Source of the DNA: Lachnospiraceae bacterium
GTDB lineage: Bacteria > Bacillota > Clostridia > Lachnospirales > Lachnospiraceae
NCBI GenBank assembly: GCA_910575775.1
Contig: CAJTEY010000004.1
Location: 1-64,000 of the forward strand
DNA: 64,000 nucleotides
Direction of reading: 5' to 3'
Positions within the stretch are counted from its first letter, which is position 1; every line of letters starts with the position of its first letter. Below, piece by piece: positions 41,958 to 46,011 of this stretch. The notes under the pieces are model-generated. The model was not told the origin of the DNA, searched no databases, and worked only from the letters and a program-made list of their open reading frames with translations. A program made the position numbers and the translations under genes.

Positions 41958-43538
41958 TTAAAGTTCCATATCCTGTTGTTTGCGTTTTGTCTGCGCCGGG
42001 ATAGTTCTTTTAGCCTTTTTCTCGTCCACCTTATCCTGCAAGGCTTCCTTGATGGGCTGTTTCTTGGGTGGCTCTTTACTTTCCTCTGTGCCGGGTGTGG
42101 CTTTCCGTACCCAATAACGGATGTCCCGCAGCTTCTTCAAATCCTCCTGTACCTCGGTCAGCGGTACTTTCAGCTCTGCGATTTCGCTGAGAAGCGTTTC
42201 CTGCTCCTCTTGCAGTTCCTTTTGAGTGCTGTCCTTATCGTCCGGGTGCTTAGCAAGGTAGGCGGCGGCTTTCTCATACCGGGCAACCTCCGGGTGTTCC
42301 TGTTTGAATTTTTCCTTTGTTTTCTTAAAAAATATCTTCTGGTACTTGTCATAGACGGGCTTACATTCCTTGCTGTCTGTCCGGCTGGCAAGAATCCCGT
42401 CAATCACTTTGCTGCGGGCTTCCTTTGGCTTCATCTGATTGCGGTAATCTGCGGCTGATTTCCCGGAAGATTCCAGAAATACTTCTAAGTCCTCCACAGT
42501 AGAAAGCCCCTTTTGCCGGAGATAGGACAGGGCTTCGCTGACTGCCTTTAAGTCCTGTGAAGTCCCCCGGTTCTGTCCAGCCCTTGTCCAGTCCTTCCGT
42601 TCTTCCTTTCGTATCTCCATATACTTCATCAGCAGATTTGGAAGAAAGACCGCTTCCTCCGCCGCTTTTTGTGCAAGCAGCTCTTTCCGTTTTTCTCCCA
42701 GCTCGGTAATCCAGCCTTTGAGGTTTTGGATAAGCTGCCGGATGGACTTCATCAGGCGGTTGGCGGCTCTGATTTCCCGGTTCAGATTGCCGATATTCGT
42801 CTGGATACCACGTTTTTCCATCTGCCGGACAGCAGCACCCTCATGGACAGTGGGGACAATATCAAGCCCCTGTCTGGCATAGGAACGCAAGTCCACACGC
42901 TCCGGGCGGTCATTGGCTTCCAGATAGCGGTTCTGGATGACCTCCCATTCATGCCTCCAGATTTCACAATACTTCTGGTCGTTCCAGTCAACCGTATCTT
43001 CCTTGTGGCTTTTCCATCTGCCGGAGGGAAGTTTTATCCGTTCCCCGTTTTCGTCAAGGTCATAAACCTTGCGGCTCTTGGGAAGCCATTTCCCATGTTC
43101 ATCCATTGCCCTCATAGTCAGCATGACATGGGCGTGGGGATTGTGTCCCGGCGGATGGGGGTCATGGATGGCAAAGTCAGCAATCATGCCTTTGGAAACA
43201 AACTGCTGTTTACAAAACTCCCGGACAAGGACAGCATACTGGTCAGGTGGTATCTCTCTGGGGATGGTAAGCACCCACCGCCTTGCAAGCTGAGAGTTCC
43301 ATTGTTTCTCCACCGCTTCGGCGGCGTTCCATAGGGTATTGCGGTCTGCATATTTCTGTGGGGCATTTGCCGGGAGCAGGATTTCATTGTGGACGATACC
43401 ACGCTTTTCCGGGTAGTGCTTCACTTGCTGGTCATATTCACAGAAAAGCTTTTCGCCACTCTGGTAAGCAGCGGCGGCAACCGCAGACTGCCGCTGGCTT
43501 CGCTGTACAATCGTGATTTCGTTGTGTGGACAGGGCAT
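41958..43538 (-). CDS. mobL: MobA/MobL relaxase (MOBQ type), element A
   Basis: A 526-aa relaxase: MPCPHNEITIVQRSQRQSAVAAAAYQSGEKL is the MobA/MobL N-terminus with the putative nicking Tyr in AAYQSG, and HDPHPPGHNPHAHVMLTMR is the histidine metal motif. The C-terminal half is charged coiled coil. ATG 43538 follows AAAGGAGGG. The RSF1010-like oriT at about 45040-45075 is the likely substrate. The gene is separated from upstream cargo by a terminator at 43602-43636. Confidence 0.92.
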   Translation of the reverse strand: MPCPHNEITIVQRSQRQSAVAAAAYQSGEKLFCEYDQQVKHYPEKRGIVHNEILLPANAPQKYADRNTLWNAAEAVEKQWNSQLARRWVLTIPREIPPDQYAVLVREFCKQQFVSKGMIADFAIHDPHPPGHNPHAHVMLTMRAMDEHGKWLPKSRKVYDLDENGERIKLPSGRWKSHKEDTVDWNDQKYCEIWRHEWEVIQNRYLEANDRPERVDLRSYARQGLDIVPTVHEGAAVRQMEKRGIQTNIGNLNREIRAANRLMKSIRQLIQNLKGWITELGEKRKELLAQKAAEEAVFLPNLLMKYMEIRKEERKDWTRAGQNRGTSQDLKAVSEALSYLRQKGLSTVEDLEVFLESSGKSAADYRNQMKPKEARSKVIDGILASRTDSKECKPVYDKYQKIFFKKTKEKFKQEHPEVARYEKAAAYLAKHPDDKDSTQKELQEEQETLLSEIAELKVPLTEVQEDLKKLRDIRYWVRKATPGTEESKEPPKKQPIKEALQDKVDEKKAKRTIPAQTKRKQQDMEL

Positions 43539-43601
43539 TTCGTGTCCCTCCTTTCTATGCTTGGTGGATGGGGTGGCGTTTTGCCACCTCATTTTGGGCA
43601 G

Positions 43602-44851: not shown

Positions 44852-45036
44852 ATATTTTATGAAACTTGTCGGCTGGGAACAGCTTGCAAGGCAAGGTGTC
44901 CCCAGATGGCAAGTCCACAAAAGGGTAGCTGGCGGCAGCCAGCGCAGGGGAAGCGTAGCGTCCCCTGTATGATTTGGAGCAGACCATGACTGCGGAAAAT
45001 CACAGCCCTCCGGCGAGGAGCCTTCGGAGAACGCAA

Positions 45037-45075
45037 TGCACCAACCTCTGGGTGGTGTATAATTGCGCCCTATCC
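45037..45075. other. oriT: Origin of transfer (oriT) of element A, RSF1010-like
   Basis: An imperfect inverted repeat CCAACC-TCT-GGGTGG (about 45041-45055) is followed by TATAATTGCGCCCTATCC. MOBQ plasmids such as RSF1010/R1162 have an inverted repeat then TAAGTGCG/CCCT with the nick before CCC; layout and core agree closely. The preceding 44880-45035 is hairpin-rich (for example CAGGGGA..TCCCCTG near 44943-44965) and non-coding. The relaxase is MobL at 41958-43538. Confidence 0.65.
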
Positions 45076-45088
45076 GAGTTCTTGGATA

Positions 45089-45372
45089 GGGCGCATTATC
45101 CGAGATAAAAACTTATCCGAGGTAAATTGATTAAATCCGATGAATACAGCATTTGAAAACGATTATCTCGGATAATTAACCCCGCTTTCAATTGTGGGTG
45201 ATTTGTACTTATCCGAGATAATTGGGTAAATCACACCTTTGCCTCTGATAATTTTTGAAATGGCAGTTGCTCTTTTCATAAATAATTATCCGAGATAATT
45301 TCTTTGAAAGCCTTTCATATCGGCAGCTTTGAGAGTTACCTCGGATAATTGGAAATCTCGGATAATGCGCCC
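45089..45372. mobile_element. 284-bp symmetric palindrome-array element (MITE-like) at the oriT nic site
   Basis: Perfect 17-bp terminal inverted repeats GGGCGCATTATCCGAGA (45089-45105 and 45356-45372) bound the element. Inside are seven copies of TTATCCGAGATAA or near variants (at 45096, 45113, 45163, 45209, 45286, 45336, 45353). Copies lie at offsets 7, 24 and 74 bp from both ends, with matching orientation and variant type (the second on each side is TTATCCGAGGTAA). No ORF is present. Direct GCGCCC copies flank the segment (45065-45070 and the right-end 45367-45372). Confidence 0.75.
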
Positions 45373-45380
45373 TTAGTAAA

Positions 45381-45677
45381 CTAAGGGGTTTCCGGCTTCT
45401 CCCGTTCCAGCATTTTTTTCAATAGTTCCTGCGTGTCCTGCCTGTGAAAAATGAGTTTCAACAACAGCATGACATCATCATCTGTTAGGCGTTCCGGCTC
45501 TTGCAGAAAACTTTCCAGCATACCGCCACGAGTGCAGAGCCGGTGCGTCCGTTCCTTTCGGGTAAGCTGCTTTAACTGGTGCTGCAATGCCTTTTCATCA
45601 TTGATGGCTTTCCGCAGTTTCTTTTCGCTTTTCTCCAGCTCCCGGTTGAGCTTTTCCAGCTTCGAGGTATCAGGCAA
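45381..45677 (-). CDS. DUF3847 family protein
   Basis: A 98-aa protein: coiled-coil N-terminus (MPDTSKLEKLNRELEKSEKKLRKA) and RTHRLCTRGGMLESFLQEPERLTDDDVM, the core of DUF3847, a mobilization-region protein family of Firmicute elements. It begins within the end of the Rep-like gene (8-bp overlap) and ends at the oriT/palindrome region. It probably acts as an accessory of mobilization or replication; the role is unproven. Confidence 0.82.
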   Translation of the reverse strand: MPDTSKLEKLNRELEKSEKKLRKAINDEKALQHQLKQLTRKERTHRLCTRGGMLESFLQEPERLTDDDVMLLLKLIFHRQDTQELLKKMLEREKPETP

Positions 45678-46011
45678 GGGCAGCGTCCTCCTTTCCCGGT
45701 ATCAGCACATAAATCCTATTCGGTTCTCCCACGCCCTGACGCACCCGCATGATAAGTCCGGCGTTTTCCAGTTCATTCAGAGAACGCTTGACCGTCATGG
45801 GACTGCGGGACAGGACTGCGGCAATGGCTGTGACAGGGAAGCAGACAAACAGGATTCCGTTCTCGTCCTCCTGCCCTTTGGATAGCATAGCGTCCAGCAT
45901 CCGGCAGTACATGACCTTTGCGGTGCTGCTGACTGGAAATCCTGTCAACGCTCTGGGAAATGGCATACAGGGCGGCAATGGTGTGTCTATCGTCATAAAT
46001 TCAAAATTCAT
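45670..46011 (-). CDS. RepA-like winged-helix replication initiator N-domain
   Basis: A 113-aa protein (DTPLPPCMPFPRALTGFPVSSTAKVMYCRML, then TVKRSLNELENAGLIMRVRQGVGEPNRIYVL) equal to the winged-helix N-terminal domain of plasmid RepA_N/replication initiator A proteins, comparable with the longer protein at 52288-53052. It lacks the C-terminal half, so it may be a DNA-binding regulator rather than a full initiator. AAGGAGG lies 10 nt before ATG 46011; it overlaps both neighbours. Confidence 0.75.
   Translation of the reverse strand: MNFEFMTIDTPLPPCMPFPRALTGFPVSSTAKVMYCRMLDAMLSKGQEDENGILFVCFPVTAIAAVLSRSPMTVKRSLNELENAGLIMRVRQGVGEPNRIYVLIPGKEDAALA

Follow-up and report, generated by a model that had tools for sequence, protein, structure and literature searches.

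What kind of DNA is built from two halves that mirror each other nearly site by site? The window, i.e. the whole stretch of 64,000 nt that was analyzed, contains such a block at 45089..45372, which spans 284 bp from one terminal inverted repeat (TIR) to the other, as read directly from the sequence, and has no direction of its own. The original prediction offered two readings, a MITE-like non-autonomous element with a multimeric recombinase or transposase assembling on both ends, and a symmetric replication or partition site. The two readings make the locus a question of whether the block moves and, if so, by which enzymes and to which sites.

The mirrored array of 13-bp sites

The array of 13-bp sites resembling TTATCCGAGATAA turned out to be real, with mirrored order at the two ends. 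With up to 2 mismatches allowed, TTATCCGAGATAA has 9 matches in the window, 7 of them inside the element (1.31 expected); in 100 shuffles the largest match count was 5, and 9 was reached in 0/100. The sites and the right end are as follows, with offsets counted from the nearer end:

45096..45108, +, site 1 left, offset 7
45113..45125, +, site 2 left, offset 24, TTATCCGAGGTAA
45163..45175, −, site 3 left, inverted, offset 74
45209..45221, +, site 4 left, offset 120
45239..45251, −, decayed counterpart of site 4 on the right, offset 121, 3 mismatches
45286..45298, +, site 3 right, inverted relative to its own end, offset 74
45336..45348, −, site 2 right, offset 24
45353..45365, −, site 1 right, offset 7, 2 mismatches
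45366..45372, +, terminal TGCGCCC on the right side of the element

The seven sites comprise 4 exact copies, 2 with one mismatch, and the right outermost copy with two. The offsets of exactly 7, 24, and 74 bp from each end, the mirrored orientations (+,+,− and −,−,+), and the occurrence of the same variant, TTATCCGAGGTAA, as the second site on both sides were all as originally described. The TIR is perfect, as had been claimed, but its length is 18 bp inside the element, or 19 with the neighboring base, and not 17 bp; longer inverted arms extend over 38 nt with 87% complementarity. The symmetry includes an eighth, decayed site with 3 mismatches (45239-45251) that mirrors the central site at 121 versus 120 bp, and its counterpart in a divergent copy (L010) has only one mismatch. 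The element is identical to its own reverse complement at 150/284 positions, compared with a mean of 75.7 and a maximum of 110 in 500 shuffles. No open reading frame of at least 80 aa overlaps 45089-45372, and the copy in the window is thus gene-less.

The mobile unit and its target

The unit that moves is larger than the block. It comprises 302 bp, namely the 284 bp with inverted ends and an 18-bp palindrome at 45071-45088, which the original prediction had missed. The unit and its surroundings contain the following features:

41958..43592, −, relaxase gene of the MobQ family in the conjugative element that hosts the insertion (NF041496, PF03389)
45039..45063, +, hairpin CACCAACC-TCT-GGGTGGTG, then TATAAT, 5′ part of the target in a predicted MOBQ oriT (from the fold and the empty sites)
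45064..45070, +, TGCGCCC, putative strand-exchange overlap and predicted oriT nick motif, which the target has in common with the right TIR and with the empty sites
45071..45088, +, 18-bp one-sided core palindrome TATCC-GAGTTCTT-GGATA, present in the occupied site and absent from the empty sites
45373..45387, +, 3′ part of the split target, TTAGTAAACTAAGGG, joined to TGCGCCC in L082, L083, and L084
45381..45677, −, DUF3847 gene adjoining the target, uninterrupted (PF12958)

Occupied and empty sites were compared, as had been proposed, and three loci (L082, L083, L084) lack the block exactly. The occupied site reads hairpin-TATAAT-TGCGCCC-[TATCCGAGTTCTTGGATA-element]-TTAGTAAACTAAGGG and the three empty sites read hairpin-TATAAT-TGCGCCC-TTAGTAAACTAAGGG, and therefore 302 bp were gained. 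The target is not duplicated, apart from the TGCGCCC that ends the element. The same precise insertion was seen in a second target family (L058 occupied, L173 empty). For two further target families, the search for empty sites in plasmids gave partial flank matches only, and empty sites were found instead by pattern in 299 genomes of the family. The motif TATAANTGCGCCCTN{6,16}AGGG occurs at 53 places in 32/299 genomes (reversed control: 2), 51 of them without and 2 with the element; the genome of the window has 3 places without and 1 with the element. The joined arrangement of oriT, 18-mer, and element was found less often, at 6 places in 4/299 genomes.

The flanks next to the 18-mer are highly uniform. 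All of the 49 that are readable (of 50) terminate with AAN-TGCGC(C/T)C, the 7-mer being TGCGCCC in 48 and TGCGCTC in one, and the plain flanks that lack the 18-mer have T as the first base in 53/53 cases. The 48 flanks of sufficient length represent 21 distinct 34-bp sequences, of which 18 have a clear predicted hairpin with RNA parameters and 3 do not (L013, L042, and one side of L074); with the same parameters, the 34-bp flank at the target in the window folds at −11.9 kcal/mol. A hairpin followed by TAAGTGCGCCCT is the arrangement of the RSF1010 oriT, and the MOBQ nick motif is of this type. A 39-base RSF1010 oriT sequence matched 157 plasmid records, all predicted to be mobilizable, and has TAAGTGCGCCCT in common with the targets.

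The relaxase gene located 1.5 kb from the element scored 243.7 bits with NF041496 (cut-off 200). MobQ was found in 42 of 82 sequences, a count that includes the query's own record, and was not seen in the other 40, many of which are short; all sequences but the window are at most 8 kb long. At the motif places, with up to 1.5 kb searched on each side and one place occupied, 22/30 have a MobQ homolog, and none was seen at 8/30, many again short. Counted anywhere in the genome, irrespective of the distance to the insertion, PF03389 was over the cut-off in 6/7 genomes of L008, L013, L040, L041, L042, L047, L049, and L074, the genome of L049 having no match over the cut-off. The target is thus a predicted MOBQ oriT, based on a hairpin and nick motif beside a MobQ relaxase gene, and from motif and context we infer that TGCGCCC is the nick site.

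The motif that was used to find the empty sites also matches the occupied one, because the 18-mer gives CCCTATCC...GGATAGGG. As the 18-mer begins with T and creates this sequence, hairpin-TATAAN-TGCGCCCT and the CCCT..AGGG palindrome are kept, and therefore the oriT probably stays usable once it is occupied.

The 18-mer is one-sided. At the 111 ends examined, it adjoins 50 and is absent at 53, and 8 are too close to the end of a contig. All four combinations of element and 18-mer orientation were found, for miniature and full-length copies alike. There is little variation at its centre (GAGTTCTT, CAGTTCTT, or their flips), and the idea that it might be a variable coupling sequence was rejected for this reason.

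Copies, full-length relatives, and the RIT family

The original prediction had suggested a search of genomes for the element's end and for longer, protein-coding copies with identical ends, and both searches were positive. An end scan of genome_contigs with GCGCATTATCCGAGATAA yielded 78 loci beyond the window, mostly from Lachnospiraceae and other Clostridia according to the record titles. Genuine ends are present in 70 of the 79 sequences, i.e. the scan loci and the window, and are lacking in nine (L011, L018, L033, L046, L048, L050, L061, L075, L077). Besides the window, 28 complete 284-bp copies were found, 25 with 0–4 differences from the window copy and 3 with 59–60; all copy counts are raw loci that include host relatedness as it is, and counts of partial copies are biased because the scan pattern matches one end of each element exactly. 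The longer copies with the same ends number 12 complete ones of 3198–3210 bp, all protein-coding, and one of these, L067, has the sites at 7, 24, and 74 bp at both ends, as in the window copy.

Several minor observations concern these copies. The three with 59–60 differences (L010, L042, L062) form a divergent miniature subfamily with the core CAGTTCTT or its flip, and no full-length partner of this subfamily was noticed among the fetched loci. Related ends of the type TGGCGCATTATCCGAGATAAACAGG, with one inverted site and no second site, are present at L018:762-832, L046:5835, and L061:7938 and are perhaps another derivative. A contig from a viral collection carries a miniature element (L187:11051-11393) in the same oriT context as the window, and the contig may be a conjugative element rather than a virus. 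A phage origin was rejected: the window region 44900-45700 has no match in phages, and the sole contig from the viral collection has the oriT context.

All of the 12 complete copies of about 3.2 kb contain three open tyrosine-recombinase genes, encoding proteins of 323, 329 (325 in one copy), and 342 aa, which all match Phage_integrase. Gene order was read in L067, where A, B, and C lie on one strand with an A/B overlap; apart from the three recombinases, this copy has no frame longer than 163 aa, and the domain scan covered its three largest frames. In BLASTP, each gene pairs one-to-one with RitA, RitB, and RitC of the trios of pHG1, Mesorhizobium, and Salipiger, the latter two trios being recognized here by gene order; according to PMC2864759, the pHG1 plasmid carries rit elements. 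The catalytic R, H-x-x-R, H, and Y align in all three proteins, with residues picked by eye in pairwise alignments with the pHG1 proteins. A RitB search (E ≤ 1e-15) matched 45/398 genomes of the phylum, and 29 of the 30 loci fetched from it contain A, B, and C in order, the remaining one B and C only. In an unrooted tree of 96 proteins, built without an outgroup and without 5 of the 89 locus proteins, each of the 5 being shorter than 230 aa, A, B, and C each form one side of a branch (100/99), and in each of them the proteins of the window type group with those of L100–L102.

RitA of this lineage is shorter, with 323 aa (352 from an upstream start) compared with 410–411 aa for the sister RitA, and the BLASTP match to the Mesorhizobium RitA starts at residue 92 of the latter. 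Two core-binding domains in RitA are given as a RIT feature in PMC8138268, and the RitA found here, about 90 residues shorter, does not appear to have both, judged by length and alignment only. By gene content and homology, we therefore classify the large copy as a RIT element (RIT, recombinase in trio); the copy in the window does not encode the trio and is a non-autonomous derivative, not a RIT itself.

In the draft assembly of the window, the element is a single copy, and no full-length RIT partner was found there, the best RitC match being 30% identical; one further match to RitC is partial, with 41% identity over about 160 residues. The right end of the miniature is 80% identical to the ritC-side end of the RIT and 74% to the ritA side, and the values for its left end are 68% and 64%, respectively. 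In the same genome (G000), contig C101:196-2696 carries adjacent tyrosine-recombinase frames that are about 20–31% identical to the proteins of the RIT described here and look like a different, divergent RIT.

The original prediction had known no family with this end architecture, yet RIT elements have it. Paired sites 17 bp apart and a one-sided palindrome are common to the element and to RITs: among 30 ends measured, the 17-bp spacing was the single best one at 21, tied for best at 3, and not best at 6, and it occurs at one or both ends of 13/15 RITs, a set that includes the window copy and L067, both of the family under study. Judged by eye and without a count, an inverted site copy lies further inward in L139, L148, L152, and L155. 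A palindrome of about 18–20 bp outside one end only was seen by eye in 17/19 RIT copies, several of which are copies of one element; L136 has none and L147 has one on both sides (L146 was left out of the end analysis, its repeat call being off). Ricker reportedly may describe a palindrome beside RITs, and the one-sided palindrome is therefore not claimed as new.

Proposed mechanism, alternatives, and known systems

Taken together, we consider it very probable that the block is a RIT reduced to a miniature without genes, which has inserted into the nick region of the oriT of a conjugative or mobilizable element of the MobQ type. The MITE-like reading has thus held up, with 3.2-kb relatives that have the same ends and encode recombinases, and with empty sites. 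The ends also appear to be built for a multimeric recombinase, as had been predicted, because copies with three recombinases have the same ends and offsets, although the assembly of the proteins on them is inferred.

The miniature is probably moved by the three recombinases of its larger relative, which would act in trans. In a crossover core of the form CTCGGATA-ATGCGCCC-target arm, the outermost 13-mer would supply the inner half, and TGCGCCC would be the overlap common to element and target at which the tyrosine recombinases cross over. Accessory binding sites might be provided by the second copy, located 17 bp further in, and by the third copy, which is inverted, and the 18-mer might contribute additional half-sites. 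A crossover between the two direct copies of TGCGCCC would release a circle of 302 bp with the junction CTCGGATA-ATGCGCCC-TATCCGAG and leave the target intact, and the circle could integrate at the TGCGCCC of another oriT. A crossover between cores in inverted orientation would turn round the element or the 18-mer. The circle junction was found 0 times in viral_contigs and 0 times in 187 loci. One full-length copy (L074:1671-4937) has the 18-bp core and TGCGCCC-type flanks on both sides. It may have arisen when two occupied sites recombined; a two-sided 18-mer is not what simple integration yields and counts against the model.

Could the array instead be a fixed cis-acting site of the conjugative element, such as a replication origin, a partition site, or a part of the oriT? 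Its location in a predicted oriT and the one context common to many copies would fit, but homologous loci lack the block precisely, it occurs in both orientations and next to 21 distinct flanks, and 3.2-kb versions with recombinase genes have the same ends. These observations refute the symmetric replication or partition site of the original prediction and leave a fixed site of any kind extremely improbable. Nor is the block constant in position without copies elsewhere, the pattern that had been said to indicate an origin. To read TGCGCCC as a target-site duplication made by a DDE or HUH transposase, with the 18-mer as an ordinary end, is equally hard to credit. It is true that TGCGCCC lies on both sides of the remaining 295 bp; however, the 7-mer hardly varies (TGCGCCC in 48/49 flanks), and the full-length copy encodes tyrosine recombinases in its three largest frames.

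Somewhat less improbable, but still very unlikely, is a miniature mobilized by host machinery and not by the RIT, either by the MobQ relaxase acting on the terminal TGCGCCC or by homologous recombination between oriTs. Each end carries TAATGCGCCC, which is close to the nick motif TAAGTGCGCCC, and the readable flanks are oriT-like. However, the same sites hold full-length RITs with the same ends, other RITs with the same end build adjoin transposase or reverse-transcriptase genes, and both the pair of sites 17 bp apart and the palindrome on one side only are traits of RITs.

Returning to the miniature RIT, its relation to known systems was considered. RITs, as described in PMC2864759, PMC3414803, PMC8138268, and PMC10214605 (C. 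metallidurans, pHG1), have the overlapping A-B-C trio and the TIRs of the family found here, whereas the window copy is gene-less. IME_oriT of streptococci (PMC7563843) are also inserted in the stem-loop of an oriT nick region, but they are mobilizable, with their own integrase and relaxase, and reside in MobT oriTs; the elements found here are a gene-less 302-bp unit or a RIT in MobQ oriTs, and neither the RIT nor the miniature copy has an integrase and relaxase of its own. Tn554-related elements, SEs, and GInts similarly combine several tyrosine recombinases or related proteins with selected sites but have other gene sets, and SEs and Tn554-related elements carry a 6-bp footprint from the donor site (both from PMC10214605); a variable stretch of this kind was not seen in the element. 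Bacterial MITEs, as outlined in PMC10969869, resemble the window copy in being short and gene-less, with inverted repeats and near-identical copies, and the terms 'tyrosine recombinase', 'site-specific recombinase', and 'oriT' had no match in the available text of that review. Like a MITE, the window copy is short and gene-less, has inverted repeats, and has its ends in common with an autonomous element. A target-site duplication is usual for MITEs of DDE transposons, and none was found here beyond the common TGCGCCC.

RITs are already known; neither oriT targeting nor a miniature form came up in the literature listed, where the open-access titles and abstract openings among the matches contain no non-autonomous RIT and no RIT in an oriT. 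The 2023 table in PMC10214605 gives RIT target specificity, empty site, and movement as untested, and its authors are not aware of any case in which RIT transposition was reproduced experimentally. The family described here provides a concrete RIT model with defined ends, a crossover word, and empty sites, and its 302-bp substrate is small enough for excision and integration assays with three proteins. With an oriT as its target, a transposon with three recombinases is linked to conjugation, and this would be a natural case of a parasite that sits at the most conserved point of its carrier and apparently spares it.

The nearest relatives, L100–L102 (extended as L136–L138), are located in IS66 transposase genes, whereas this lineage is located in MobQ oriTs, and a target switch of a RIT to oriT is plausible because of this difference. 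A more far-reaching idea, which we regard as speculative and rather unlikely, is that the lineage switched from transposase genes to the MobQ nick site and that its ends evolved to mimic the nick ([TTATCTCGGATAA]TGCGCCC), with the result that a functional oriT is rebuilt upon every insertion. If this were true, an insertion might add a second nick site that the relaxase can recognize, the element, including the 302-bp form, would be the first part of the transferred strand to reach the recipient, and its ends could even be substrates of the conjugation relaxase. RITs in general would then parasitize functional motifs that are conserved in other mobile elements.

The flanks of other RITs are varied. 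The pieces scanned, 10 of 28 and chosen by look, matched IS66 transposase in four cases, reverse transcriptase in two, amidoligase in one, and nothing in one, and the remaining two had an integrase-core match below the Pfam cut-off. Two RIT insertion sites are described in PMC2864759, an IS66 tnpA gene for one element and a radC gene for the other. L152 and L153 are copies of another RIT and lie in reverse-transcriptase genes, just after the TPQGG/VPQGG motif.
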